From positions 1 to 64,000 of the forward strand of contig PBLA01000018.1 of the NCBI GenBank assembly GCA_002722245.1: a stretch of DNA of 64,000 bases, read 5' to 3'. Both the position numbers and the translations under genes were made by a program. Of this stretch, positions 1-40,179 are shown in pieces. The DNA comes from Flavobacteriales bacterium. Lineage in GTDB: Bacteria; Bacteroidota; Bacteroidia; Flavobacteriales_C; GCA-002722245. The notes beneath the pieces were generated by a model. That model ran no database searches. It worked only from the letters and a program-made list of their open reading frames with translations, and was not told where the DNA came from. Within the stretch, counting starts at the first letter, position 1; each line of letters begins with the position of its first letter.

Positions 1-90
1 AGCAAGCTAGAAATGCTGCCCCTCGACTTGCATGTGTTAAGCCTCCCGCTAGCGTTCATCCTGAGCCAGGATCAAACTCTTCGTTGTAAA
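1..90 (-). rRNA. 16S ribosomal RNA, 5' end only
   Basis: The reverse complement of this stretch contains the universal 16S start region, AGAGTTTGATCCTGGCTCAG followed by GATGAACGCTAGCGGGAGG and the CTTAACACATGCAAGTCGAG block. The gene is read on the minus strand and leaves the window at base 1, so only about 90 bases of the mature RNA are present. The exact mature 5' end is estimated from the usual 7-8 bases ahead of AGAGTTTGAT. The GGCAGCATTTCTAGCTTGCT segment is the start of the first variable region. Confidence 0.97.
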
Positions 91-7343: not shown

Positions 7344-8090
7344 TTACATGGACATTCCGCCACAAATATTAATAACCTGACCAGTAATATAGGCACTTCG
7401 ATCAGAACCTAAAAAAACACATAAATCAGCAACTTCTTCAGCTTGACCTGGCCTTTGCAAAGGAATTCCTTTAATCCAATCTGCCACAACATCTTCTCCT
7501 AATACTTCCGTCATTTCTGTAGCAATAAATCCTGGCGCAATTGCATTAGATCGTATATTCCTTGACCCTAATTCTTTTGCCACAGATTTTGTAAAACCGT
7601 ATATACCCGCTTTAGAAGCAGCATAATTTGCCTGTCCAGCATTTCCATTTACACCAACAACTGATCCAACATTAATAATTGAACCTTTTCTCGCTTTCAA
7701 AAACGTTCTTAACGCTCCTTTTGTTGTATTAAATACTGATTTTAAATTTGTAGCAATTACCTCATCAAACTGCTCCTCCGACATTCTCATAAGAAGATTA
7801 TCTCGCGTAATCCCTGCATTGTTCACAATGATATCTAACCCTCCAAAATCCTTAACGATATTAGCAATTAATTCTTCAGCTTGTGCATAATCTCCTGCAT
7901 TGCTTTTATACCCTTTTGCTTCTACACCAGCAGCCTTTAATTCTTCTTCAAAAGCTCTTGCTTTTTCCTCTGAACTTAAATACGTGAAGGCCACTTTAGC
8001 ACCCTCTAAAGCATACTTTTGCGCGATTGCTTTTCCTATACCTCTTGACGCACCTGTTATCAAGGCGACTTTACCTAATAATTGTCCCAT
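7344..8090 (-). CDS. fabG: 3-oxoacyl-[acyl-carrier-protein] reductase
   Basis: FabG is the NADPH-dependent ketoacyl-ACP reductase of fatty acid elongation. This 248-residue short-chain dehydrogenase has the TGASRGIG dinucleotide motif at residues 12-19, the NNAG motif near residue 90, and the catalytic Ser/Tyr/Lys arrangement ending in YAASKAG around 155-160. The C-terminal GQVINICGGMSM is typical of FabG. It is transcribed away from the beta-barrel gene at 8142, the two sharing a 51-base divergent promoter region. Confidence 0.94.
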   Translation of the reverse strand: MGQLLGKVALITGASRGIGKAIAQKYALEGAKVAFTYLSSEEKARAFEEELKAAGVEAKGYKSNAGDYAQAEELIANIVKDFGGLDIIVNNAGITRDNLLMRMSEEQFDEVIATNLKSVFNTTKGALRTFLKARKGSIINVGSVVGVNGNAGQANYAASKAGIYGFTKSVAKELGSRNIRSNAIAPGFIATEMTEVLGEDVVADWIKGIPLQRPGQAEEVADLCVFLGSDRSAYITGQVINICGGMSM

Positions 8091-8141
8091 TTATCCTAAA
8101 TAAAATATGTATTTTCGTGATTTCAATATTACAACTAAGAT

Positions 8142-8924
8142 ATGAGATTTTTGCTGTTTACCGTCTTTTCATTGTCCATTTCATTAAATTCTTTTGCACA
8201 GGGATGGGTAGACACTGGAATTAAAGGAGGTTATGGAAGTTCTGCACTTGTTAACCCGAATGTTTGGAACAATACAACTGTTGAACATTTATTATCTCCA
8301 GCATATACTTTTGGGGGAAAAGTTGGTCTAAACTTTAACATGAACTATCAAATCACACTTGACTTCTTGCACAAGGGATCAAGTCAGCGATACTTATTTC
8401 AACCCGAATTAAACACTGTGACAAACGGTGATGTTAGAACAAAATGGAACAAGACTGTGCGCTACAGTTCTTTTGACCTTCCATTGTTGTTTAGACACAA
8501 CAGTGACAACGGAAGCTTCTTTGAAATTGGACCGCAATTTTCATTTATGGGTAAAATTAATGAAACAACTGACGCCTCAGGAAGTTCAGTTGAAAGGGAT
8601 GTAAAAGACAATTTCAACTCCACAAATTTCGGTGCAGTTGTAGGTTTTGGAAGTTTTCTTTTAGGATCTCAAAACACGTATCTCGTTTTAGGATTTCGCG
8701 TCCATTATGGACTACAAGACTTAATTTCTGATAAAGGTGGAAAGGACCAAACCGTATATTATCCTATTAACAATCAAGAACTGGATTCTTACGAGCCAGG
8801 ATTTCAATTTGAAGATTACAAAGCAACCAATCCGTTGAGTGCTGTGGTTTATTTAGAAATAAATTATGACTTAGCCTACTTAACACGATCGGAATGTAAA
8901 AGAACGGCATTAAGATTTTTTTAA
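8142..8924 (+). CDS. Outer-membrane beta-barrel protein
   Basis: A 260-residue secreted protein. A clear signal peptide (MRFLLFTVFSLSISLNSFAQ) is followed by alternating aromatic and polar strands with glycines, such as GGKVGLNFNMNYQITLDF, as in the PorT/OMP_b-brl family of Bacteroidota. No enzymatic motif is seen. It stands alone on the plus strand, with fabG divergent upstream and mazG converging 5 bases downstream. The function is unknown; a small outer-membrane barrel is the best reading. Confidence 0.75.
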   Translation: MRFLLFTVFSLSISLNSFAQGWVDTGIKGGYGSSALVNPNVWNNTTVEHLLSPAYTFGGKVGLNFNMNYQITLDFLHKGSSQRYLFQPELNTVTNGDVRTKWNKTVRYSSFDLPLLFRHNSDNGSFFEIGPQFSFMGKINETTDASGSSVERDVKDNFNSTNFGAVVGFGSFLLGSQNTYLVLGFRVHYGLQDLISDKGGKDQTVYYPINNQELDSYEPGFQFEDYKATNPLSAVVYLEINYDLAYLTRSECKRTALRFF

Positions 8925-8929
8925 TCGAC

Positions 8930-9709
8930 TCAAGTGCGTTTTGCCTTTTCCCAGTAGACATCCATCTCTTGAAGATTCATATTTCTTAGGTCTTTTCCTT
9001 CCCTGTTTATCGATTCTTCCATAATTGTGAATCGGTTTATAAATTTCTTATTCGTTTTTTCGAGTGCATCCTCTGGGTTAATCCCAACAAAACGAGCATA
9101 ATTCACCAATGAAAACATTAAATCACCAAACTCTTGTTCCATGTTTTCTTGATTACAGGCATCTATTTCCTCTTTGAATTCATTTAATTCTTCTTTCACC
9201 TTGTCCCAAACTTGATCTTTATTATCCCAATCAAAACCAATTCCTTTTACCTTATCCTGTATTCTTATCGCTTTGACTAAGGAAGGCATACTCTTAGGAA
9301 GTCCCTCTAATACTGATTTCTTTTTCTTTAATTCCCCTTTCTCTTCAAGTTTAATCTTCTCCCAATTGGATTTCACCTCCTCCTCTGATAGAGCTTGAAT
9401 ATCACCATAAATATGTGGATGTCTACGAATAAGCTTTTCACACAAGAACTCTAACACGTCTGAAATAGTAAACGCTTTTTTTTCACTCGCAATCTTCGCA
9501 TAAAAAACCATATGTAAAAGAAGATCTCCTATTTCACCTTTTAGTTCATCTAAATCATTTTCAATAATTGCATCAGACAACTCATACGTCTCCTCAATTG
9601 TTAAATGACGAAGTGATTCAAGAGTTTGTTTTTTATCCCAAGGACATTTTTCCCTCAAATCATCCATAATATTCAATAGGCGCTCAAATTGAATTACACT
9701 CTTATCCAT
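8930..9709 (-). CDS. mazG: Nucleoside triphosphate pyrophosphohydrolase
   Basis: MazG hydrolyses noncanonical and regular NTPs to NMP and pyrophosphate, for house-cleaning. The N-terminal half carries the MazG signature with CPWD (residues about 22-25) and the metal-binding EETYELSDAI helix, followed by GEIGDLLLHMVFYA. The second MazG domain shows EFGDLMFSLVNYARF near residue 200. At 259 residues it is the usual two-domain form. It lies 16 bases downstream of the hypothetical gene at 9726-10973 and could share its transcript. Confidence 0.95.
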   Translation of the reverse strand: MDKSVIQFERLLNIMDDLREKCPWDKKQTLESLRHLTIEETYELSDAIIENDLDELKGEIGDLLLHMVFYAKIASEKKAFTISDVLEFLCEKLIRRHPHIYGDIQALSEEEVKSNWEKIKLEEKGELKKKKSVLEGLPKSMPSLVKAIRIQDKVKGIGFDWDNKDQVWDKVKEELNEFKEEIDACNQENMEQEFGDLMFSLVNYARFVGINPEDALEKTNKKFINRFTIMEESINREGKDLRNMNLQEMDVYWEKAKRT

Positions 9710-9725
9710 ACAAATAATTTATACT

Positions 9726-10973
9726 CTAATGTAAGAAGGATTCCAACAAAACTTCAAACTCTTTCTGAGATTTAAATGCAGGCTTAAGATTTACTGATTT
9801 TATAAACCCAATAGTAACCTGAGAATAAGCTACCATATATCCACCCTCAACTGACTTGTAAGCGATAACATGACCCGATTCACCTGAAGGTATTTTTGAA
9901 AACTTATATTGATTGCTATAATTTGAATTCAATAATCCGGGAACAATAGCATTTCTTCTATTCAAGGCCATTCGAACCGTAAACTCCTCATTTACTCCTT
10001 CTAAGACAATATCCAGATCGCTTGGGTTTTTAACATTTACAATACGATCACAATTTATCCATCCAATCCTTTTGCCAGTCAAAAGTAGTTTTTTAGGTGA
10101 CATTTTTTCATTCTCTTCATCGTTAGAACGAACTTTAAACGTGCTGCTTTCGCTCCTCTTTTCCATTAACTCGCCCTCATCAAACATACTCGTGTAAGCA
10201 TAAGACCTTTTATCTTCAAGCCATTTCACATTACCATTTTGAACAGTTCCATAATAGGCTTTAAAACCATCAGCATCTTCAGGACGATTCAAATATATTT
10301 TGTACGACTTCCCGTTTTGCAACTTTAATTTCATTTTATCCTGAAATCCTTGAATATAAAAAGTACTAGCAGTTTCCAATACCTCGTCTTCCCCTCCAGA
10401 TGTTAACTCACTAACAATCATATCCTTTTGCTTAAAAAACTCCCAAACGCATATGTTTACTTCACCATTTACAATAAATCCATTTTCTGAAATAAAGGAA
10501 TTTGGTTTGAACACAAAAATATTACCACTTTTCGTTTTAAAGTAAGACTGTTCATTCGTATTAATCTTAAAACACTGCTGTTCAATTTTGTTTAAATTGA
10601 TACGACCACTCATGGAGTAAAAGGCTTTTGGTTTAAATAACAGAATGCTCATCCCTCCAGATAAATCAAGTTTAACATTTTTAGATGCACAACCAATGCC
10701 CATGAAAAATTCACGAATCGAGAAGGCTCTTTTTTTCGCTAATTGTATTTTATCAAATTTTGCCCAATGCTCTTCGTCTTCTCCCTCTAGTCGAATCCGG
10801 GTGAAATTACGTTCAGGCAAACTATTGTAAATATCTGAAGCTTGCTTCATAACTGATTCCGTAAGTTTAATAACCCCTGTTGGAAATTTAATTTTATGAT
10901 ATTGCAAATTATTATTTGCAGCTGAAAATAGCGATATAAGTATCCCTATATAGAATAATACGTTCCTTAACAT
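9726..10973 (-). CDS. Secreted protein of unknown function, OmpA-like and ZU5-like segments
   Basis: A 415-residue protein with a short hydrophobic N-terminus that looks like a signal peptide. Residues about 60-110 include a stretch (KIQLAKKRAFSIREFFMGIG) that resembles the second half of an OmpA-type peptidoglycan-binding domain, but the usual diagnostic residues are not all visible. Residues about 140-260 (FVFKPNSFI, GEVNICVWEFF, SGGEDEVLETASTFYI) resemble the ZU5-like module seen in other secreted Bacteroidota proteins. Both resemblances are by eye. It lies directly upstream of mazG. Confidence 0.7.
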   Translation of the reverse strand: MLRNVLFYIGILISLFSAANNNLQYHKIKFPTGVIKLTESVMKQASDIYNSLPERNFTRIRLEGEDEEHWAKFDKIQLAKKRAFSIREFFMGIGCASKNVKLDLSGGMSILLFKPKAFYSMSGRINLNKIEQQCFKINTNEQSYFKTKSGNIFVFKPNSFISENGFIVNGEVNICVWEFFKQKDMIVSELTSGGEDEVLETASTFYIQGFQDKMKLKLQNGKSYKIYLNRPEDADGFKAYYGTVQNGNVKWLEDKRSYAYTSMFDEGELMEKRSESSTFKVRSNDEENEKMSPKKLLLTGKRIGWINCDRIVNVKNPSDLDIVLEGVNEEFTVRMALNRRNAIVPGLLNSNYSNQYKFSKIPSGESGHVIAYKSVEGGYMVAYSQVTIGFIKSVNLKPAFKSQKEFEVLLESFLH

Positions 10974-11036
10974 GCCCCCGAATTTTTTGTAGAATATGAT
11001 TAGAACGAAATAAAATAGTCTTTATTGCGATAGAAT

Positions 11037-11471
11037 CTATTTTTTATAAATAGCGTACCGACTTTTTTGGCCTAACTCATCCAAAAATGCAATCTTACAT
11101 TGGTATTGTCTTAATAAATCAAACTCCCCTATACCTATGTACAGCAAATTTCGCGTTGTGTAAAAACTAACCACCCCTTCCGTTTGTTGTGCTTTTGTCC
11201 AATCAAAGGGTACAATTAAATCAGAAATAACTTCAAACCCGCCTTCATCAAGCGGTTTTTCGAGAATTAGGTGAATATTTTCAATAACCGATGGATCAGA
11301 AGGAAGAGTGACCATATAATACAATTTGCATTTTAGTGCATTTTGGGCATCTCGATAACCGGTTAATGAAACTACCAAACTTTGCGGGGCAGGAACATTT
11401 TGAGCCCAAACAAAAGAAGGTGCAATAAAACACACGATCAAAAAGGAAATTATGAGCACAAGTTTTTTCAT
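11037..11471 (-). CDS. Small secreted protein of unknown function
   Basis: A protein of 144 residues from the preferred start. The upstream reading frame opens four codons earlier, but the internal start MKKLVLIISFLI gives a standard signal peptide ending near SFVWAQ. The mature part is rich in beta-strand-like sequence with no Cys or recognisable motif. It sits upstream of the 9726-10973 gene on the same strand with a 63-base gap. I do not recognise the family. Confidence 0.65.
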   Translation of the reverse strand: MKKLVLIISFLIVCFIAPSFVWAQNVPAPQSLVVSLTGYRDAQNALKCKLYYMVTLPSDPSVIENIHLILEKPLDEGGFEVISDLIVPFDWTKAQQTEGVVSFYTTRNLLYIGIGEFDLLRQYQCKIAFLDELGQKSRYAIYKK

Positions 11472-11558
11472 AGCAAAAAACAATAAACTGTCTGAGTACT
11501 ACGAAACTATTCAAAAATTGTTCTTTTGGTAATAAAAGAAGCAGTATTTATTGTCTCT

Positions 11559-11735
11559 CTAATTCAAGATTAAATATAACTTACCCAAATTTTCACTTTC
11601 TTCAATTGAAATACTTTTAGAGTAATTTAAAATAAAAGCGATTGTTTCTTTTTTTGGACCGATTTCTGGATTATTTAATTGGTTTTCACTTTTTGTTTTC
11701 GATGTTGAAATTTCCTTAGTGTATTGTTTAGCCAT
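11559..11735 (-). CDS. Small 58-residue protein downstream of the sigma factor
   Basis: An ATG at 11735 opens a 58-codon frame on the minus strand ending in TAG at 11559. The protein starts MAKQYTKEISTSKTKSENQL and carries the block PKKETIAFILNYSKSI, a pattern I associate with small conserved proteins of Flavobacteria of unknown role. It is soluble, charged and without Cys. It lies 75 bases downstream of the ECF sigma gene on the same strand, so it may be co-transcribed. Codon composition looks like real coding sequence, but conservation was not tested. Confidence 0.6.
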   Translation of the reverse strand: MAKQYTKEISTSKTKSENQLNNPEIGPKKETIAFILNYSKSISIEESENLGKLYLILN

Positions 11736-11810
11736 AAACTTAATTTTAGATGATTATTTTAATCAAAAACGAATCTTAAAAAACTTTATTGCCAAACTTT
11801 TAACATTTTT

Positions 11811-12407
11811 TTACAGTTCTAATGAAACACCATGTTCTTCAACCATTTTTCTCAAATTAATCAAGGCATACCTCATTCTTCCCAATGCTGTATTGATACT
11901 TACATTCGTATATTTAGAAATTTCACTAAAACTCATATCATAGTAATGACGCAGTTTAACCACCTCTTTTTGCTCCTCAGGTAATCGTTCTATTAACTCC
12001 TTTACATCACTCTTGATTTGAGTTTTAACCAATCTCTCCTCAACATTTAACTCTTCGTACTTAATTGTGTTAAAAATATCCAACTCCTCATTATCTCTGC
12101 TCCGTCCACTCACCTTTCTGAATTTCTTTTGTTTTCGAAAATGATCAATCATTAAATTATGAGCAATTCTCATCACCCACGGCAAAAACTTCCCTTCCTC
12201 ATTATACTTCCCTCCCTTTAACGTATTAATTACTTTAATAAACGTATCTTGAAAAAAATCTTCAGCCAGAGATTTATCTTTAATCGTGACAAGAATGTAG
12301 GAATATATTCTTGAGCGGTGACGATTAACTAATTCTTCTAGGGCAGTTTCACTACCTTTAATATAAACACTCACTAACTCCTGATCGGAAAGACTTACTA
12401 AGCTCAT
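11811..12407 (-). CDS. ECF-type RNA polymerase sigma factor
   Basis: A 198-residue sigma-70 family protein of the extracytoplasmic function group. Region 2 is visible as the DKSLAEDFFQDTFIKV and FLPWVMRIAHNLMIDHFRK segments (about residues 45-95). Region 4 is seen as RLPEEQKEVVKLRHYYDMSF with a helix-turn-helix continuing into NTALGRMRYALINLRK (about 140-190). No anti-sigma gene is adjacent. It is transcribed divergently from uvrA across a 217-base spacer that holds A/T-rich sequence but no promoter I can call with confidence. Confidence 0.92.
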   Translation of the reverse strand: MSLVSLSDQELVSVYIKGSETALEELVNRHRSRIYSYILVTIKDKSLAEDFFQDTFIKVINTLKGGKYNEEGKFLPWVMRIAHNLMIDHFRKQKKFRKVSGRSRDNEELDIFNTIKYEELNVEERLVKTQIKSDVKELIERLPEEQKEVVKLRHYYDMSFSEISKYTNVSINTALGRMRYALINLRKMVEEHGVSLEL

Positions 12408-12624
12408 AATTCCTCTGTTTTAAGGTTAATAATTAAATTTTATCAGAGTAATTATGCTTTATAGGCGAATGCGGTTTAAATTGGTGTAAACTTGTAAGTA
12501 TCTTAATTAACGTAGGCTAATGTAAATTATTGTAGTTCTTTAAAAAAATATTTAACTTTTTTTAAAGCTACCTTAATTTAAATATAATTTAATGAAAAAA
12601 CAAATCAAGTAGTTTGCAGTAAAT

Positions 12625-15411
12625 ATGTCTAAACAAACGAAAAGCAAAAAGTCTGATCAGGACATTATCATAAAAGGTGCAAAACTGCATAACCTAAAAA
12701 ACATTGACGTAGTTATACCAAGAAACTCCTTTACTGTAATAACTGGTGTTAGCGGTTCCGGTAAATCAACCCTAGCTTTTGATACACTTTATGCAGAAGG
12801 ACAGAGAAGGTATGTGGAGAGTTTATCCTCTTATGCCAGACAATTCATGGGGAAACTAGAAAAACCAGAGGTAGATTATATACAAGGTATTTCTCCAGCC
12901 ATAGCAATTGAACAAAAAGTAATCACCCGTAATCCCCGATCAACGGTTGGAACAACCACCGAAATATATGATTATCTTAAAATTCTTTTTGCTCGATTAG
13001 GAAAAATTATCTCTCCTGTTTCTGGCAAAGAGGTCAAACGAGACACAATTGAAGACGTATTCAAGTTTATTGATTCCCTCAAGGACGGCACAAAAGGAAT
13101 CATCTACTTAAAATATAACAATCCAACAGCGAAAACAATACAAAATCTGATTGAACTTGGATATTCTCGAGGGCGAGTTGACAATAAATTCATAGCACTT
13201 TCAGAAATATCCACTGGTGATTTTGATTTAATTATTGATCGCTTTTCTAAACAAAATTCAGAAGATTTTGAAAGCCAAATTACCGATTCAATACAAACTG
13301 CTTTTGATCAGATGAATGGGGAATGTTGGATCGATTCCTATGAAAATGAACACCCAACAACGCATTATTTTAGTCACAAACTTGAAGCCGATGGAATTCA
13401 ATTTCAGTCACCAACTCCTGAATTGTTTAACTTTAATAGCCCATTAGGTGCATGCCCTACTTGTGAAGGATTTGGTAAAATATTAGGAATTAGTGAGGAC
13501 TTAGTAATTCCTAATAAAAATGAATCAGTTTACTCCTATTGCGTAGCACCATGGAAAGGGCCGAAACTTGGGGAATGGAGAAAGCAATTTATTCAAAATG
13601 CCCACCACACTAACTTCCCTGTACATACCCCCTATAAAAATCTTAGTGAACAAGAAAAAGATCAACTTTGGAACGGTTCAGTTTATACTCTAGGAATTCA
13701 TCATTTTTTTGATGAATTACAAAAAAAGATATACAAAATTCAAAACAGGGTGATGATTTCGCGTTATAAAGGACGTACTGATTGTCACGATTGTAAAGGA
13801 CTGCGTTTAAAAAAAGAGTCATTAGCAATAAAAATTGGCACTAAGAACATCGCCGAAGTGTCATCAATGACAATTGATGAAGCATTTAATTTTATTCAAA
13901 ACCTTAACCTGACCAAAAGAGAATGGACAATTGGCAAACAATTGATTGAAGAAATTTCCAATCGATTGGCTTTTTTAATCAACGTAGGTGTTGGATACAT
14001 CTCGATTAATAGACTAAGTAATAGTTTATCTGGAGGAGAGTCACAACGTATTAATTTAGCTAGTAGACTAGGTTCAAGCCTTGTTGGATCGTTATATGTA
14101 CTCGATGAACCAAGTATCGGTTTACATCCTAAAGACACTCAACAACTTATAGAGGTGTTAAAAGGGTTAAATAAAATTGGAAATACAGTAGTAGTGGTTG
14201 AACACGATGAAGAGATCATGCGAGCAGCATCGCATATCATTGATATTGGTCCCAAAGCAGGAATTTATGGAGGAGAAGTTGTTTTTGAAGGAAACCACAA
14301 AAAACTACTTCAATCGAAAAAAAGCCTCACCTCTGACTACTTAAATGGTAAGTTGAGCATTAATATTCCCGAAAAGAAAAATCCCAAAAAACACATCACT
14401 CTAAGAGACTGCACATCCAATAACCTTAATATTAAAAAAGTAGAATTTGCCCTTCAATGTTTAACTGTAATTACAGGAGTAAGCGGTTCAGGGAAATCGA
14501 GTTTAGTGAAAAACGAACTTATTCCAGCCGTTAAAGCGTATTTAAACAATGATGGCTCAAACAAATTATCAGGAGATTTGACCGTGATTGAGTCCCTTGA
14601 ATATGTAGACCAAAATCCAATTGGTAAATCCTCGCGTTCTAATCCAGCAACATATGTGAAAGCATTCGATGAAATCAGGAACATATTCACCAAACTTCCT
14701 ATGTCTAAATTAAGGGGGTATAAACCATCTCATTTTTCATTAAATGTCCCCAATGGAAGATGTGAAAAATGTCAAGGTGAGGGTTTCATTACTATAGAGA
14801 TGCAATTTATGGCTGATCTTAAAGTCACCTGTGATGAATGCAAAGGAAAACGATACAAAGAAGAAATTCTAGAAGTAGAATATGAAGGAAAAAACATATA
14901 TGATGTATTGAATCTTTCCATTGATGAGGCCATTGAATTCTTTAAAAAGAATGCCGATCCAAATAGGAAAACAACCCTAGAAGGAAAATTGATGAATAAA
15001 CTTTTGCCTTTGCAAAAAGTAGGTTTGGGCTATATTAAACTTGGACAAGCGTCCAGCACGTTATCTGGCGGGGAGGCTCAAAGAGTAAAACTTGCCTATT
15101 TTTTGATCAAAGGCAATAATAGTAATAAAACATTATTTGTTTTTGACGAGCCTACAACAGGACTTCATTTTCATGATATTCATTTACTACTTGAATCATT
15201 TTATGCTTTAATAGACCAAGGTCATTCCATTATTGTTATTGAGCATAATACAGAAATCATGAAATGTGCGAATTGGTTAATCGATTTAGGGCCTGGAGGT
15301 GGAGAGCACGGAGGAACTCTTTGCTACTCCGGAATAACCGAGGAAATACGTTCATCTAAAACCTCCATTACAGCAAATTTCATAGCAGACAAACTGAAAT
15401 TAAATCCATAG
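12625..15411 (+). CDS. uvrA: Excinuclease ABC subunit A
   Basis: UvrA recognises bulky DNA lesions and loads UvrB in nucleotide excision repair. The 928-residue protein has two ABC ATPase modules: Walker A GVSGSGKS at residues 41-48 and again near 617-624, with signatures LSGGESQR near 468 and LSGGEAQR near 813. Zinc-binding pairs are seen as CPTC (about 277) with CHDC (about 389), and CEKC (about 713) with CDEC (about 736). Length and order match the family. It is a single plus-strand gene with an ECF sigma gene divergent upstream. Confidence 0.97.
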   Translation: MSKQTKSKKSDQDIIIKGAKLHNLKNIDVVIPRNSFTVITGVSGSGKSTLAFDTLYAEGQRRYVESLSSYARQFMGKLEKPEVDYIQGISPAIAIEQKVITRNPRSTVGTTTEIYDYLKILFARLGKIISPVSGKEVKRDTIEDVFKFIDSLKDGTKGIIYLKYNNPTAKTIQNLIELGYSRGRVDNKFIALSEISTGDFDLIIDRFSKQNSEDFESQITDSIQTAFDQMNGECWIDSYENEHPTTHYFSHKLEADGIQFQSPTPELFNFNSPLGACPTCEGFGKILGISEDLVIPNKNESVYSYCVAPWKGPKLGEWRKQFIQNAHHTNFPVHTPYKNLSEQEKDQLWNGSVYTLGIHHFFDELQKKIYKIQNRVMISRYKGRTDCHDCKGLRLKKESLAIKIGTKNIAEVSSMTIDEAFNFIQNLNLTKREWTIGKQLIEEISNRLAFLINVGVGYISINRLSNSLSGGESQRINLASRLGSSLVGSLYVLDEPSIGLHPKDTQQLIEVLKGLNKIGNTVVVVEHDEEIMRAASHIIDIGPKAGIYGGEVVFEGNHKKLLQSKKSLTSDYLNGKLSINIPEKKNPKKHITLRDCTSNNLNIKKVEFALQCLTVITGVSGSGKSSLVKNELIPAVKAYLNNDGSNKLSGDLTVIESLEYVDQNPIGKSSRSNPATYVKAFDEIRNIFTKLPMSKLRGYKPSHFSLNVPNGRCEKCQGEGFITIEMQFMADLKVTCDECKGKRYKEEILEVEYEGKNIYDVLNLSIDEAIEFFKKNADPNRKTTLEGKLMNKLLPLQKVGLGYIKLGQASSTLSGGEAQRVKLAYFLIKGNNSNKTLFVFDEPTTGLHFHDIHLLLESFYALIDQGHSIIVIEHNTEIMKCANWLIDLGPGGGEHGGTLCYSGITEEIRSSKTSITANFIADKLKLNP

Positions 15412-15471
15412 AACACCAAAATTACGTTCACCTTTTAATTTGGTTTATTTAAACTTGCAAAAAGTATAGAA

Positions 15472-16989
15472 ATGAAAAATAAAATTTTACTTGCTTGCAT
15501 ATTTTTGTTGTCAATTCAATTCAGTTACGCACAAATCTCTTACAAGAAAAGAATTGAATTCGAATTGAATAACGGATACACAAATGAAAAAATCTTAGAA
15601 TTTGGAGAAAATGGTTTCATTATTTCATCCAGAGCAGCTAAAACGAGTAAAAAAGGAAAAGAATGGAAATATGAAAAATTTGACACCAATCTAAAGCGTG
15701 TTAAATCAAAAAGTATATACCTTGGAAAAAAATTCTATTCCGATGAATCCTATACAAGCTCTACACGAAATCATCGCTTTTTTCGGGATAAGAAAGGAAA
15801 CTTTACCCTTGTCACCATAAACGCACTCAATCTTGAAATTGAAAAAGTATCTGGAGTACTCCCAAAAAAAACAAGTGTACGAGATATGGCCGTAATAGGA
15901 GATTTTGCATTTTTGAAAGCCGTTTCCAAAAAACAACCTTTTTTATTTTCTATAAATTGGAAAACTGGAGCCAAGCGACTTATACCTTTAGTTATTGAAG
16001 GCGCAAAAATGAAAAAAGTCTCGGTTAAGAACTTTCAAGTTTCAGAACAAAACAATGAAATTTATGTTTTTGTTAAGGTACCAAAATCTAAAAAAGCATC
16101 TGATCTTCATGTTATCCGTTTAAACAGTTTTGGAGAAAAGCAAGATCAATTCAACTTAACCGCAGAAATTGATAAAAACATCGTTGAAATAACAGCTTCA
16201 AAAGTTACAGATGATGAATATATCTACACAGGAACCTATTCCTCTAAATACATTAATCAATCAGAAGGAATCTTTTTTTGCACCGCTCAAAGAAATAAAA
16301 TAAATCAAATTGAATTTTATAACTTTTTGGACCTTGAAAACTTTTTGTCCTACTTACCCGAAAAAAGACAGGAAAAAATCAAAAAGAAACAACGAAAAAA
16401 AGCCAATAAAGGAAAGGAGCTTACTTTTAACTATAGTATTTGCCCGCATGATATAATTAAAACAGACGACGGATATATTTTCATTGGCGAAGCCTATTAT
16501 GAAACTTACCGAACAGAAACAAGACAAGTCACCTCAACCGTTAACGGTGTTACAACTACAAGAACTGAAACCTATCAAGTTTTTGATGGATATCAATACA
16601 CGCATGCCATGGTAGCTAAATTTAGTCATCAAGGCAAGCTAATTTGGGACCAAACCTTTGAAATGTGGTCAGCTTACAAGCCATTTTATGTTAAAAAATT
16701 TATATCTATTGCTGAGAAAAACCCTAAATCGCTTCAACTTGTTTATACCAGTCGAAACAAAATTTATGCTAAATCATTTGGTTATGATGGTCAAGTTCAA
16801 CATGCTTCATCCTCAAAAGAAATAAAAACTGGAAAAGAAGGAGACAAGGTTAAATACGCATTTTCTAATTTAGACTTTTGGTTCGATAACTTTTTCATAG
16901 CCTACGGAAAGCAAAAAATTAAAAACACAGCAACAGAGGGGAAACGAAAAAGAAAGGTGCTCTTCGTTAGTAAAATACAATACAAATAA
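15472..16989 (+). CDS. Secreted protein of unknown function
   Basis: A 505-residue protein with a clear signal peptide (MKNKILLACIFLLSIQFSYAQ). The mature part is Lys-rich and built of repeated beta-type segments such as GNFTLVTINAL, GEKQDQFNLTAEI and GYIFIGEAYYETY, which could form a propeller-like fold. A basic stretch (KIKKKQRKKANKGK) lies near residue 310. No sorting tail or enzymatic motif is seen. It follows uvrA by 60 bases and is closed by the bidirectional terminator at 17015-17047. Confidence 0.75.
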   Translation: MKNKILLACIFLLSIQFSYAQISYKKRIEFELNNGYTNEKILEFGENGFIISSRAAKTSKKGKEWKYEKFDTNLKRVKSKSIYLGKKFYSDESYTSSTRNHRFFRDKKGNFTLVTINALNLEIEKVSGVLPKKTSVRDMAVIGDFAFLKAVSKKQPFLFSINWKTGAKRLIPLVIEGAKMKKVSVKNFQVSEQNNEIYVFVKVPKSKKASDLHVIRLNSFGEKQDQFNLTAEIDKNIVEITASKVTDDEYIYTGTYSSKYINQSEGIFFCTAQRNKINQIEFYNFLDLENFLSYLPEKRQEKIKKKQRKKANKGKELTFNYSICPHDIIKTDDGYIFIGEAYYETYRTETRQVTSTVNGVTTTRTETYQVFDGYQYTHAMVAKFSHQGKLIWDQTFEMWSAYKPFYVKKFISIAEKNPKSLQLVYTSRNKIYAKSFGYDGQVQHASSSKEIKTGKEGDKVKYAFSNLDFWFDNFFIAYGKQKIKNTATEGKRKRKVLFVSKIQYK

Positions 16990-17014
16990 TAATGACTGAG
17001 TCGTTCTAAAATAG

Positions 17015-17047
17015 AAAAGCCATATTCAACTCGAATATGGCTTTTTT
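17015..17047. terminator. Bidirectional Rho-independent terminator
   Basis: A 12-base stem, GCCATATTCAACTCGAATATGGC with an A-run on the left and a T-run on the right, lies between two convergent genes (15472-16989 plus and 17069-17452 minus). The flanking A and T runs let it act in both directions. Confidence 0.9.
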
Positions 17048-17068
17048 GATGTAAAGACAATTTTTTAT

Positions 17069-17452
17069 TTATTCTTCTTCTACTTCAATCATTGTAAAGG
17101 GAACTTTTATAATGGCCTGATAATCTTCACCTGCCTCCAACATATCTTCGTCATCCTCTTCGTAATACCAATTAATCAAAACCTCATTACCTGCTTTATG
17201 AATTGCTTCAAGCTTCTTAAACAAATCAAGAATACATTTGGAAGAAGAAGTATTAAAATACTCCAATTGTATTTCAACTTTTGTAGCAGCCTTTGGTCCC
17301 TTAGAATATTCATCCAATGACTCTACAATAGGCTTATAAAATTCAATACTATTCTCTGGTATAGATCTTCCCTTTAACTCCATTAAACCGGCATCAGAAT
17401 CAAATAATACTGTTGGGGTTTTTGAAGTGCCTTCTATAGAAATCTTTCCCAT
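17069..17452 (-). CDS. siaC: SiaC family regulatory phosphoprotein (DUF1987)
   Basis: SiaC is the switch protein of the SiaABCD system of Pseudomonas, where its phosphorylation state on Thr68 decides whether it binds and activates the diguanylate cyclase SiaD. This 127-residue homologue keeps the family N-terminus (IEGTSKTPTVLFDSDAG) and the LEYFNTSSSK segment, in which the Thr falls at residue 68 as in Pseudomonas SiaC. The C-terminus is very acidic (EEDDEDMLEAGEDY). It is 9 bases downstream of the siaB-like gene, so kinase and substrate are co-encoded. Confidence 0.88.
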   Translation of the reverse strand: MGKISIEGTSKTPTVLFDSDAGLMELKGRSIPENSIEFYKPIVESLDEYSKGPKAATKVEIQLEYFNTSSSKCILDLFKKLEAIHKAGNEVLINWYYEEDDEDMLEAGEDYQAIIKVPFTMIEVEEE

Positions 17453-17461
17453 AATGCTTTT

Positions 17462-18019
17462 TTATTTTTGAGGGATTTTAATGTATAAACTAAAAAATGA
17501 ATACGTATCATCCACATCCATGAAATCGTAAACTAGTTTTTGTTTACTTTTTCGTGCAATATCAATAATACCCAGACCGCTTCCACCTTTTTCACTTCGT
17601 TCGTCATTATTAAGAACCTCTTTGTATAGCGATTTTAAACCATCTCTATCAAGGGAATTAACTTGATCTATTCGTGACTTGAGTTTAGAAACACGATCTG
17701 CTAAAATATAATTACCAGTAACAATGTTATAAGAAGAATCATCTCGTCCAATCATAAAAATAGCTGCACTTTCTTCATCTATCCCTTTTCGCTTCATCTC
17801 ATCACGGTGATGATAAAGATTCTGCAAACATTCCACTAGTACATTATATACTTTTCGCTTAACCTTGCTACCCTCTCCTAAATTTTCCAATTTAGTCTCC
17901 ATTATTTGAAGCATAGAGGTAAGCATTTCTGCGGTTACATCGCCTTTGAACGATAACATAATATCATTGCTTTCCATTTTTTGGTAGAAATCATAGATAT
18001 TTAGGTTCATAAACGACAT
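17462..18019 (-). CDS. siaB: SiaB family protein kinase
   Basis: SiaB is a GHKL-fold serine/threonine kinase that phosphorylates SiaC. The 185-residue protein has the ATP-binding N-box as NVLVECLQNLYHH (residues 59-71, Glu63 and Asn67) and a G-box as GGSGLGIIDIARKS near 145-158. It forms a two-gene unit with siaC. The matching phosphatase SiaA and cyclase SiaD are not in the window. The 180 bases upstream (18020-18199) separate it from a divergent methyltransferase gene and hold no gene. Confidence 0.87.
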   Translation of the reverse strand: MSFMNLNIYDFYQKMESNDIMLSFKGDVTAEMLTSMLQIMETKLENLGEGSKVKRKVYNVLVECLQNLYHHRDEMKRKGIDEESAAIFMIGRDDSSYNIVTGNYILADRVSKLKSRIDQVNSLDRDGLKSLYKEVLNNDERSEKGGSGLGIIDIARKSKQKLVYDFMDVDDTYSFFSLYIKIPQK

Positions 18020-18199
18020 AGCGGTGATAAAAATATAGTTTTTAATTCAAACTAAAAATAGTTTATGCAGACTTATAACGCCTATCACAACCTATAGTTT
18101 CATTTTCAGGAAAAATAAACGGAAATATTCTCTTTAAAACCTCATTATTTTTTCCTTTTCGATCACATAAATTAAGAACGCTCTTTTTATCTTTAAAGT

Positions 18200-18931
18200 A
18201 TGACAGATGAATGGTTTAAAAATTGGTTTGACACAAAATATTATCATATTTTATACAAGCACAGAAATTTTAGCGAGGCCGAACACTTCATTAATAAACT
18301 ACTTGATTTCTTAGCACCAAAAAAAGAGTCTAAATTTTTAGACATCGCATGTGGAAAAGGACGCCATTCATTATACATTAATGAAAAAGGCTTTCAAGTA
18401 GTTGGCTATGATTTATCAGAACAGAGTATACGCTCCGCAAATAGCCAAGCAAAAAATGGGGTAGAATTTTACACCCACGACATGAGGCAAATCTTTAGAA
18501 CCAACTACTTTGACTTCGCATTAAACCTGTTCACTAGTTTTGGTTATTTCAACACTGTCCGAGATGAATTGAATGCAATCAAATCATTCGCTGCTAATTT
18601 AAAGCCCGGTGGTAAATTAGTAATTGACTTCTTGAATAAACATAAAGTAATTTCGGAACTCCTTGCCCTCGAAACGAAAAGAATTGACAACATTGAATTT
18701 TTAATTCGAAAAAAAATTGAACAACAACGTGTAGTTAAGGATATTGAATTCCAAGATAAAGGAAGGAACTATACCTTTCAAGAATCAGTCAAACTTTTGG
18801 GACTGGAAGATTTTAAAAATTATTTACAAAAGGTTGATTTAAAAATAACTCATACATTTGGGAATTATAATTTGGATGATTTTAATACACATTCTGATCG
18901 TCTCATTATCATTGCTCAAAAAGTTGGATAA
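18200..18931 (+). CDS. Class I SAM-dependent methyltransferase
   Basis: A 243-residue Rossmann-fold methyltransferase. Motif I is FLDIACGKGRHSLYI (about residues 47-61) and the acidic loop is VVGYDLSEQSI; the DFALNLFTSFGYF segment matches the motif found in the Methyltransf_25/ubiE-like group. The substrate cannot be read from sequence. The end overlaps the likely start of the ZIP transporter by 8 bases, so the two are probably translated together. Confidence 0.88.
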   Translation: MTDEWFKNWFDTKYYHILYKHRNFSEAEHFINKLLDFLAPKKESKFLDIACGKGRHSLYINEKGFQVVGYDLSEQSIRSANSQAKNGVEFYTHDMRQIFRTNYFDFALNLFTSFGYFNTVRDELNAIKSFAANLKPGGKLVIDFLNKHKVISELLALETKRIDNIEFLIRKKIEQQRVVKDIEFQDKGRNYTFQESVKLLGLEDFKNYLQKVDLKITHTFGNYNLDDFNTHSDRLIIIAQKVG

Positions 18932-37226: not shown

Positions 37227-37298
37227 AAACTCCTTTCCTTAAACATTTTTTTTGGGGAGTGAGTTAAATCATGAACACAACAGAACCTAATCTCGCAG

Positions 37299-37340
37299 TT
37301 AAAAATTAAGCGGCACTGAATATCCATACTTAATTTTTAA
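37299..37340. repeat. AT-rich 12-bp perfect inverted repeat
   Basis: TTAAAAATTAAG and its exact complement CTTAATTTTTAA are separated by 18 bases, 73 bases after the oxidoreductase stop. It could be a weak terminator or mark the left edge of the repeat island. The rest of 37227-37368 has no gene; a 12-codon frame starting at 37272 is too short to call. Confidence 0.6.
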
Positions 37341-37368
37341 ATTTGAATCATTAATGACTTCTCTAAAA

Positions 37369-37428
37369 AGAAGGTTAGATACAATCTAACTTCATATTAA
37401 CCCAGTAGTTACAAACTACTGGGGGCGG
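37369..37428 (+). repeat. 60-bp double-hairpin repeat, copy 1
   Basis: Two hairpins in series, each with an ACA loop: GTTAGAT-ACA-ATCTAAC, then after ten or so bases CCAGTAGTT-ACA-AACTACTGG, ending in a GGGCGG tail. An inverted copy at 39467-39526 differs at only two of 60 bases. Such paired palindromes are typical of REP or IS200-like (RAYT-mobilised) sequences, but no transposase is in the window. Confidence 0.92.
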
Positions 37429-37458
37429 GATGAATTAAGTACAAAAAAGTAATTTAAC

Positions 37459-37926
37459 ATGAAACTAATTATCTCTTTTATAGTGTATTGCTTCCCGTGT
37501 CTTATGTTTGGAGCTAACTCGGAATTAATTCTCTCCCCCCCTGATAGTATTACTCAAGTTGATTCGATAAACACATTATTCAAACTTTCAGATGATTCAA
37601 TAATTATCGATAAAGTTAGGGTACTATCGAAATCTAATAGCTTAATCGAAGTGTCTAATATTAAACTAAATTTTAGAATAAATGATTGCAAAATAGATTC
37701 TATAAATACTGAATTTGGTTCAAAATTTAAATTGAGTATCATAGAACCTTTGTTGAAGAAAGCTATAAGGTACTCAGTTCGTGAGTTTGAAAACCCAACT
37801 AAAGAAGGCGTATTCTTTCATTTAATAAATGAAGAATCTATTATTGCAGAGTTGCATAAGAGGTACTTTTTGTTTATCAGTCTTGAGTTCGATATACTTG
37901 ATAAAAATATTCATTTAAAAAAGTAG
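37459..37926 (+). CDS. Secreted protein of unknown function in repeat island
   Basis: A 155-residue protein with a signal peptide (MKLIISFIVYCFPCLMFGA) and no recognised domain. The mature part is alternating beta and helix with many Ser, Asp and Ile. It begins 31 bases after repeat copy 1; between them an eight-codon in-frame end (GATGAATTAAGT..., stop at 37450-37452) looks like the tail of a lost gene. Together with the two other modules of the island this suggests a partner gene was cut away. Function unknown; an immunity-type role is only inference. Confidence 0.7.
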   Translation: MKLIISFIVYCFPCLMFGANSELILSPPDSITQVDSINTLFKLSDDSIIIDKVRVLSKSNSLIEVSNIKLNFRINDCKIDSINTEFGSKFKLSIIEPLLKKAIRYSVREFENPTKEGVFFHLINEESIIAELHKRYFLFISLEFDILDKNIHLKK

Positions 37927-37950
37927 AAAAGTATAAGAGTATAAGGTGCA

Positions 37951-37982
37951 CGACAGTAGAGGGACAGACACCCCGTCCCCAC
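37951..37982. repeat. GC-rich GGGAC/GTCCC hairpin related to the island repeats
   Basis: Reading plus, CAGTAGAGGGAC is followed by AGACACCCC and GTCCCCA. The GTCCC pairs with GGGAC, and the minus strand reads TGGGGACGGGG, matching the tail of the double-hairpin repeats. It sits between the convergent ends of the genes at 37459-37926 and 37985-38482. The relationship to the repeats is by eye and short. Confidence 0.5.
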
Positions 37983-37984
37983 AT

Positions 37985-38482
37985 TTAGAAGGGGTCTGAA
38001 ATGGCCATTGGCACATCGTCACGCATACCGTTTTTATATTTATACATTTTAATTAGTTTACCATTAATAAATATGTATTCTAGTGTTTTTTTTCCATTTC
38101 TATCTAACAATACCCACTTGTTGTCCTTTTTCAAATTCACCTTATTAATATTCCCTCTCAATTCTTTACCATTATCTAATAAAACTATAAAATTAAAAAG
38201 AGTGACTGAATCTAATTGGTCATAAAAGCTTATACCAGTTAACAAGTTATTTGTCTTAGGTGATGAGTAAGGAAACACCTCTTCAAAATTCGAAACCAGT
38301 ATCGAATCTTCTTTACCAATTGTTGATTTAATATAACTAACAGTAGCTGATTCAAATGAACTTTTACATCCAACTAGAATAAAAACAACAAATATCAACT
38401 TACTATTTAGAAGTACATGAATAACATTTTTTTGCATCTTTTGATTCTTTTTGGGTTCTTCTTTTATTATTTGACTTCCCAT
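37985..38482 (-). CDS. Lipoprotein of unknown function in repeat island
   Basis: A 165-residue frame. A start at Met16 (38437) gives an ideal lipoprotein signal ending ILVGC; the ATG at 38482 sits one base after the stop of a truncated upstream frame. The mature part ends DLDGKKTLEY-like beta segments (KWVLLDRNGKKTLEYIFING) similar to those of MORN/YwqK proteins. No family recognised. The genes around it are unrelated core genes, so it belongs to the accessory island. Confidence 0.72.
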   Translation of the reverse strand: MGSQIIKEEPKKNQKMQKNVIHVLLNSKLIFVVFILVGCKSSFESATVSYIKSTIGKEDSILVSNFEEVFPYSSPKTNNLLTGISFYDQLDSVTLFNFIVLLDNGKELRGNINKVNLKKDNKWVLLDRNGKKTLEYIFINGKLIKMYKYKNGMRDDVPMAISDPF

Positions 38483-38483
38483 A

Positions 38484-38567
38484 TTATTCTTTCAATTTCC
38501 CTGTTAATGAATCAACATTCCCTTTTGTTGTTTGAATTTTACTTTTTTCATCAGTCAACTCTCGCCT
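38484..38567 (-). pseudogene. Truncated 3' end of a gene, joined to repeat copy 2
   Basis: A frame of 27 codons plus stop (RRELTDEKSKIQTTKGNVDS then LTGKLKE) runs from the edge of repeat copy 2 to TAA at 38484-38486, one base before the ATG of the lipoprotein gene. It has no start codon of its own in a sensible place. The reading frame and the tight spacing to the next gene are what one expects from the last part of an upstream operon partner whose body has been lost. Confidence 0.55.
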
Positions 38568-38595
38568 CCAGTAGTTACAAACTACTGGGGACGGG
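38568..38595 (+). repeat. Half copy of the double-hairpin repeat, copy 2
   Basis: CCAGTAGTT-ACA-AACTACTGG followed by GGACGGG: the second hairpin and tail of copies 1 and 3, without the first hairpin. It is in the same orientation as copy 1 and ends 7 bases before the stop codon of the YwqK-like gene. Confidence 0.9.
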
Positions 38596-38602
38596 ATTAA
38601 AC

Positions 38603-39337
38603 TTAGTTTTTAAACTCTTTTTTAGATTTAACAACTCCATTTTCATATATAATTTTCTTAATTATCTTACCCTTTAGATTAAACTCCTTCCAAGTTCCTA
38701 CAGGAATCGAAATTCCTTTATCAACCGAAGAAGGTATATACTCCCCTGAAGTTTTTATTTTTCCATTTGGGTGATATTCTTTCCATAACCCAGACCAATA
38801 CACACCGTCAATCATTGTACCTGAAATCCAAACCTCCCCATTCTTATTTGCATAACATACTTTTTGTTCTTTTTTAGAATAATCTATCTCATATTTTAAA
38901 ACTCCATTATCCCACCATTCTCTAACAATTCCTATGTACTTTCTATTTTGCCTATTATACACCTTTTGAACTTGACCATTCTCATAATAATATACACCGA
39001 TAGACACACCTTCACTAGAAAAAACGAATGTTCGCATAGCTCCAGATTCGTACCACTCAATAAATGGCCCATCACTTTTACCATTAAGCTTATTTGACTC
39101 TAATTGCTTTTTTCCGCTTTTGTAAAACTTTATCGTTTTAACATGACTCTCATCTTTATAGAAATGAAGAAGTTTAATCGAATTATTATCATAAAAAACA
39201 GTATCCACCTTAATTTTACCACAACCTATTGGATGAGAATAAGATTTAAACGCTTTAAATAAAGTATCTGTCTCCTGCCCCTTTAATGAAAGCAGGCAAG
39301 TGCTAAATATAAAAACAAGTATTACTTTTCCTTTCAT
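38603..39337 (-). CDS. YwqK/MORN-repeat secreted protein
   Basis: A 244-residue protein with a signal peptide (MKGKVILVFIFSTCLLSLKG). It contains about six MORN-type (toxin-antitoxin YwqK family) repeats: KFYKSGKKQLES, FIEWYESGAMRTF, VYYYENGQVQKVY, EWWDNGVLKYEI, LWKEYHPNGKIKTSGEY, TWKEFNLKGKIIKKI. In Bacillus YwqK protects against the YwqJ toxin; whether this one is an antitoxin is inferred from family and context. ATG lies 3 bases after the stop of a truncated frame. Confidence 0.82.
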   Translation of the reverse strand: MKGKVILVFIFSTCLLSLKGQETDTLFKAFKSYSHPIGCGKIKVDTVFYDNNSIKLLHFYKDESHVKTIKFYKSGKKQLESNKLNGKSDGPFIEWYESGAMRTFVFSSEGVSIGVYYYENGQVQKVYNRQNRKYIGIVREWWDNGVLKYEIDYSKKEQKVCYANKNGEVWISGTMIDGVYWSGLWKEYHPNGKIKTSGEYIPSSVDKGISIPVGTWKEFNLKGKIIKKIIYENGVVKSKKEFKN

Positions 39338-39340
39338 AAT

Positions 39341-39463
39341 TTAAAACTCGTGCCAATCAGTGTAAATATCAACTGCAAAATCACCTGGAAGTAATCCAAC
39401 ACCAGGCAAACTTACTCTATTCTGATCAACTATCTGAACCGTAACATTATCACCATATACTGC
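39341..39463 (-). pseudogene. Truncated 3' end of a gene, joined to repeat copy 3
   Basis: Forty codons plus stop, beginning AVYGDNVTVQIVDQNRVSLP and ending VDIYTDWHEF, with no start codon; an in-frame TAA at 39464-39466 lies right at the repeat junction. The tail ends 3 bases before the YwqK-like ATG. The sequence is well-formed protein and reads like the C-terminus of a larger protein such as a toxin domain, but the family is not recognised. Confidence 0.6.
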
Positions 39464-39466
39464 TTA

Positions 39467-39526
39467 CCGTCCCCAGTAGTTTGTAACTACTGGATTAATA
39501 TGAAGTTAGATTGTATCTAACCTTCT
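39467..39526 (-). repeat. 60-bp double-hairpin repeat, copy 3 (inverted)
   Basis: Reverse complement of copy 1 with 58 of 60 bases identical; both hairpins (CCAGTAGTT-TGT-AACTACTGG in plus reading and GTTAGAT-TGT-ATCTAAC) are intact. It marks the right edge of the island. Bases 39527-39600 hold no gene. Confidence 0.92.
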
Positions 39527-39600
39527 CGCCAGAGAGGCTCACGCCTAAAGACTTATACAGAAACTTATTTTTTCCTTCATAATTTAATCTTGCCTCCCAT

Positions 39601-40179
39601 TCAACGCGCTGCCGAATTAAATTCGCTTAGCCGCCAACCTTCTTCTGTATTTATGAATTTCACGAATCCTGTGTAATGAATATGGTAGGATCGGGTGTCT
39701 TCCAGCGGTGTTTTTAAAAGGTAGGAAAGAACCGATCGAATAACTCCTCCATGGCAAACAATTGCAATGTTTTCTTCTGATCGCTCTAAAATGTTTTGCA
39801 GTTCTTCCACAACTCTTCGTTTTAACGCTGCGAAACTTTCTCCGTTTGGGGGGCTGTTCAAGGTATTTTTATACATCCAAAGATTTCCTCCTTCAACTGC
39901 GATATCCGCCCAACTTTTCTCTTCCCAATCACCGTAATTAACTTCCTTTAATTTCTCTTTAGTTTCTGGTTTATTATCAAATAGGTATGTCGCTAACTTA
40001 ACACACCTTTTAAGCGGAGAGCTTATGACAACATCTGGAACAAAATGCGCTAATTTAGACTTTAAATGCTCGGCCTCTGTGTTAAAATTAGAGGAAACAT
40101 CAATGTTTGAGTGCCCATAACATATACCTCGTGGTATAGATAAACTCGTATGTCTTATGAAAATGAGTTCTTTTGCCAT
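39601..40179 (-). CDS. Histidine phosphatase family protein
   Basis: A 192-residue phosphoglycerate-mutase-like phosphatase. The catalytic RHT is at the start (FIRHTSLSIPRGICYG), the second Arg in SSPLKRC, the Glu in EVNYGDWEEKSW and the second His in VCHGGVIRSV. The YGDWE motif is common in alpha-ribazole phosphatases, but the substrate is uncertain. First core gene after the island. Confidence 0.88.
   Translation of the reverse strand: MAKELIFIRHTSLSIPRGICYGHSNIDVSSNFNTEAEHLKSKLAHFVPDVVISSPLKRCVKLATYLFDNKPETKEKLKEVNYGDWEEKSWADIAVEGGNLWMYKNTLNSPPNGESFAALKRRVVEELQNILERSEENIAIVCHGGVIRSVLSYLLKTPLEDTRSYHIHYTGFVKFINTEEGWRLSEFNSAAR

Follow-up and report, generated by a model that had tools for sequence, protein, structure and literature searches.

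Two 60-bp sequences, inverted with respect to each other, lie about 2 kb apart in the 64,000-nucleotide stretch of Flavobacteriales DNA analyzed here, referred to below as the window. The locus raises the question of what kind of element these sequences represent, and of how they came to stand on either side of a small group of genes.

Anatomy of the repeated unit

The copies at 37369-37428 on the plus strand and 39467-39526 on the minus strand were identical at 58 of 60 positions (97% over 60 bp), and both hairpins described in an earlier sequence-only reading of this DNA were recovered exactly. GTTAGAT-ACA-ATCTAAC (termed H2) matched at 37374-37390 and 39505-39521, while CCAGTAGTTACAAACTACTGGGG matched at 37402, 38568, and 39471, where shuffles expect no match. 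The earlier reading had taken the 60-bp pair as the unit; the pair stood, but alignment with other copies revealed a homologous unit of 75 bp having an extra 5' hairpin, H1, and a third, partial copy was also present. The elements in the window are the following.

37358..37432, plus strand: full element W1 (91.5 bits), consisting of H1 (37358-37373), H2 (37374-37390), spacer (37391-37401), H3 (37402-37422), and G-rich tail (37423-37430)
39463..39537, minus strand: full element W2 (87.1 bits), inverted relative to W1, consisting of H1 (39522-39537), H2 (39505-39521), H3 (39473-39493), and tail (39465-39472)
38568..38600, plus strand: third copy, partial, with H3 and tail alone (CCAGTAGTTACAAACTACTGGGGACGGGATTAA); exact H3 match, no recognizable H1 or H2
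37291..37357, minus strand: tentative divergent partner half of W1, a weak TTAAAAATTAAG..CTTAATTTTTAA hairpin

The 75-bp element has the order H1 - H2 - spacer - H3 - GGGRCGG tail, with stems of 5 bp in H1 (arms CTTCT..AGAAG), 7 bp in H2, and 9 bp in H3, the latter two each closing a 3-nt loop. Folded as single-stranded DNA, W1 reached -15.3 kcal/mol, with a z score of -6.8 against shuffles. The ACA loop shared by the two hairpins had been considered a telling feature, which it proved not to be, as other copies carry GCA, ATA, TTA, or GAA and the last A alone is constant.

The tails of W1 and W2 point towards each other, with 2030 bp between them. The candidate partner half of W1 received weak scores from the two models described below (R1, 14.3 bits, E 0.0054; R2, 9.7 bits, E 0.051; both over 2.4 kb). 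It would use the H1 and H2 of W1, as some overlapping doublets of the sister genus likewise appear to do.

Copies in the genome and conservation of the hairpins

The draft genome amounts to 3.0 Mb over 34 contigs, with 95.2% completeness, and the window represents its contig C19. A genome-wide count of copies, as the sequence-only reading had proposed, added three full copies to the two in the window, together with several that are partial or decayed, all on other contigs.

C28:135471-135543: full copy
C28:146053-146125: full copy
C25:7531-7603: full copy
C32:8423-8496: distant copy
C28:96861-96918: partial copy
C25:2448-2515: decayed copy

The hairpin structures therefore recur genome-wide, with two full copies and one partial copy on C28, one full and one decayed copy on C25, the distant copy on C32, and three copies on C19. 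Copy number is nonetheless low, at about 10 spread over four contigs, and the independent insertions are fewer still, because two C28 copies sit within direct repeats of about 460 bp.

Alignment of the five full copies gave 105 pair cells, 97.1% of which held standard pairs, and this value fell to 32-59% when the pairing was shifted by one to three columns. Both sides had changed in 6 of the 21 stem pairs; H2, for example, has the arms GTTAGAT/ATCTAAC in some copies and GTAAGTT/AACTTAC in others. The compensatory changes at six stem pairs indicate that the structure is conserved, and it is therefore either selected or faithfully copied as a structure. Such changes fit DNA and RNA equally. The absence of any G-U pair from the 105 cells tilts the balance slightly, as weak evidence, towards palindromes that act at the DNA level.

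A structured RNA, such as a 3' UTR stabilizer, a terminator-like element, or a small RNA, spread only via duplication of gene neighborhoods, would suit the compensatory changes as well as DNA does. It would also suit the intergenic position of the copies, some of them close to gene ends, and the two C28 copies inside longer duplicated segments. We nevertheless consider this explanation unlikely, since the orientation of the element relative to genes varies, no Rfam family matches it (the sole match in the window was to the end of a 16S rRNA), and, in relatives, elements built alike flank transposase genes, as described next. The scarcity of G-U pairs, none here and only two in H2 and H3 of the sister-genus set, weighs lightly in the same direction.

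Elements of the same build beside RAYT genes in relatives

Two models were employed, R1 built solely from the copies of this genome and R2 solely from elements of the sister genus. R1 gave weak matches in sister-genus genomes and in G038, which belongs to another family; its search of the set termed "order" covered ten genomes. Applied to 20 Y1-gene loci, R1 found a single match, in G055, where an H3-like hairpin lies about 45 bp before a gene for a REP-associated tyrosine transposase (RAYT). We attribute this poor yield to stems that diverge quickly, and R2 was therefore built. The build of the sister-genus elements is exemplified by TTTTTCC-TGC-GGAAAAA / AGAAGCT-GAA-AGCTTCT / spacer / H3 / G-rich tail, with stem and loop sequences that differ from those found here.

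RAYT genes with divergent elements at both sides were found at G008:C135, at G008:C106, where the elements are a variant of the same build, and at G005:C36. An element is present at one side of the RAYT gene at G006:C10, where the contig ends, and at G007:C31, again at a contig end, and G009:C59 has a weak element. At G038:C4, reading of the DNA revealed H2/H3-type structures at both sides of a RAYT gene (profile E 8e-56). Matches to NF047646, whose cut-off is 80 bits, scored 104.7 and 103.5 bits in G008 and 99.7 bits in G055; the G006 RAYT, cut by the contig end, fell below the cut-off. The RAYT proteins are about 180 aa long with NHVH, WQ, and YIH(N/Q/D)NP motifs, the G055 protein departing with NHLH and WV. 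At the level of motifs and length they agree with Table 1 of PMC6006769 for subclass 2.6, equivalent to RAYT group 5.

R2 counted 85 copies in G008, 45 in G006, 22 in G007, 13 in G005, and 2 in G009. Among the 150 sister-genus copies listed, divergent doublets made up 47 of the 53 neighbor pairs less than 300 bp apart. Covariation was strong, with 118 cells changed on both sides compared to 31 in shuffles, over 51 distinct elements in an alignment that was fitted to the structure and so leans towards it.

Reciprocal searches connected the two sets. At E<=1, R1 gave five matches in G006 and G008 together, and four of these coincided, on the same strand, with independent R2 elements; calculated by hand, these elements occupy about 0.1-0.2% of the two genomes. 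In the other direction, R2 found the copy at C28:135471 of this genome with 32.4 bits (E 7e-6 in 226 kb), and when run without filters on the 2.4-kb island that carries the pair, it gave E 1.5e-4 for W1 and 0.0046 for W2. The whole-genome R2 search at E<=0.1 reported no copy in this genome. Because these scores are modest, the link to the sister-genus elements leans on the shared architecture besides the scores. R1 matches at E 0.1-1 in G010, G019, G035, G039, G048, and G057 may be due to chance. The exact pattern GTAGTTNNNAACTACTGGGGACGG had no match in the database of genome contigs, nor did a slightly looser one in viral contigs.

The sequence-only reading had allowed that the element might occur only at this locus, with no tie to mobile elements. 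Instead it recurs on other contigs, and elements of its build, mostly in divergent doublets, stand beside RAYT genes in the sister genus and one other family, so that the resemblance to REP/RAYT systems suggested at that time is supported by the sequence comparisons. The proposed search for an IS200/RAYT-type gene with the same ends found RAYT genes beside same-build elements in relatives and none in this genome. The earlier remark that no transposase is present holds for the whole assembly, in which neither PF01797 nor a five-sequence RAYT profile at E<=1 detected a RAYT or Y1 gene, although one could lie in the few per cent missing from the 95.2% complete draft. With no RAYT detectable in the genome, the copies here are orphans. 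Y1 genes of another kind do occur in the sister species G001 and G004, with a YVELNP motif in G001.

The above considerations point to a non-autonomous REP-like repeat, probably (at roughly 0.72) of the "atypical" kind found with group-5 RAYT, or TnpAREP subclass 2.6, in Bacteroidota.

Known systems and the island carrying the pair

Other classes of hairpin element fit less well. The core boxes of attC sites are ordered RYYYAAC ... GTTRRRY; the order in H2 is reversed (GTTAGAT ... ATCTAAC) and its loop is 3 nt, which rejects an integron attC. In general terms, the element resembles IS200/IS605 ends in its subterminal hairpins, which in those systems are processed by Y1 HuH enzymes, but no transposase lies between the elements, and they are paired in inverted orientation, whereas those insertion sequences have a left and a right end that differ and lie on one strand. 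Nor does an IS200/IS605 insertion sequence fit, as the assembled genome has no PF01797 match and the unit no Y1 transposase. In the canonical REP, a single hairpin is accompanied by a 5' GT[AG]G within 0-2 nt of its foot; none is found at the feet of H1, H2, or H3, and GTAG is present only within the H3 stem. CGTC-tagged REPs were likewise rejected, as the stems and loops given for them (PMC3733652) do not fit. Like REPINs or BIMEs (PMC3116915), the sister-genus elements are mainly close divergent doublets around RAYT genes, but their halves each comprise two to three hairpins lacking GTAG at the foot, and the two window elements converge, tails inward, across 2 kb.

The closest likeness is to the structures associated with subclass 2.6, or RAYT group 5 (Quentin et al. 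2018, PMC6006769). As generally described there, these are palindromes of Bacteroidota without a GT[AG]G guide, which flank a RAYT of about 180 aa with NH[LIV]H, WQ, and YIH[QN]NP motifs, as do the relatives' genes here, and which have copies elsewhere. Measured against that general description, the window copies differ in residing in a genome without a detected RAYT and in the three-hairpin anatomy set out here. Atypical structures beside group-5 RAYTs were thus known earlier in outline as the "atypical secondary structures" of subclass 2.6, which automatic REP searches missed; the set-out anatomy and the orphan subfamily would be the new part.

Characterized TnpAREP enzymes cleave single-stranded REP hairpins (PMC8266576). 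By analogy, a RAYT acting in trans most likely uses the elements as substrates, to be copied or moved. A RAYT would recognize the hairpins in single-stranded DNA, for example at replication, and would cleave and transfer strands at intergenic sites, thereby copying or inserting the element. The orphan copies would then be remnants of a lost RAYT, or would have been imported with accessory gene islands, of which the 2.4-kb one holding W1 and W2 is an example. One point against this explanation is that the tails of W1 and W2 face inward, opposite to those of the doublets and of the RAYT-flanking pairs. The conserved multi-hairpin anatomy, together with genome-scale covariance models, makes the recognition rule testable, that is, which hairpin, which loop, and which cut site serve where a GTAG guide is lacking. 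The orphan copies also indicate that REP-like elements can persist in a genome without a detected transposase.

The island in which the pair lies comprises the following.

37227..39608, no strand assigned: inserted island, absent in three sister species; right end approximate
37459..37926, plus strand: ORF of 155 aa, family not found
37985..38482, minus strand: ORF of 165 aa, family not found
38603..39337, minus strand: ORF of 244 aa, MORN_2 repeat protein (57 bits, cut-off 29.6)

In G001, G004, and G002, which have no island, the gfo/idh-like and histidine phosphatase genes are only a few bases apart. As G002, by identity the most distant of the three, also lacks the island, the simplest interpretation is that this lineage gained an insertion. 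The GC content of the island is 31.4% versus 35.1% for the window, and its DNA had no match among phages and plasmids. The elements may have arrived with the island or entered it afterwards.

The pair's position, with one element close to each end of a 2.4-kb insertion that three sisters lack, could suggest a composite mobile unit whose ends are the two elements and which moves the 2-kb gene segment whole. This is improbable, given that the insertion extends beyond the elements by about 130 bp and 70 bp, that the tails point inward, unlike those of RAYT-bearing pairs, and that the only comparable stretch between other full copies is a 10.5-kb Rhs-like array, whose copies are in direct orientation. 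The sequence-only reading had raised inversion of the 2.1-kb segment, for which 60-75 bp of near-identical inverted sequence could serve as substrate in homologous or site-specific recombination. This is very improbable, as the sisters lack the segment altogether, leaving no strain with the opposite orientation among those compared, and the element elsewhere occurs in non-inverted arrangements.

Under the preferred reading of REP-like RAYT substrates, it is conceivable, if a long shot, that three-hairpin group-5 RAYT elements act in trans as movable boundaries of accessory gene cassettes. If so, orphan pairs would enable genomes to capture and exchange small unknown genes as well as Rhs-like genes of the toxin/immunity type.

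Several further features were observed. The C28 array (135-146 kb of the contig; 7395-18439 of locus L038) consists of ORFs that begin almost identically (MKKKLYI...FGITVTTTAPNTG) but end differently, resembling Rhs-type tips accompanied by immunity-like genes; one ORF scores close to the Pfam Gln_amidase cut-off, and the 460-bp direct repeats holding the element bracket the array. At G035:C2 (L117), many AGCAAGT-NNN-ACTTGCT hairpins surround a Y1-type gene, apparently another REP-like family. The start of a 16S rRNA gene lies at the contig edge (window 1-87, minus strand). A second type of repeat motif, based on GGGGACAG/GGGGACGG (e.g., TTGGGGA-CAG-TCCCCAA), occurs at 37960-37985 of the window, at 15140-15170 of L038, and at 979-995 of L110, and is also found about 240 bp upstream of the other-kind Y1 gene in G004.
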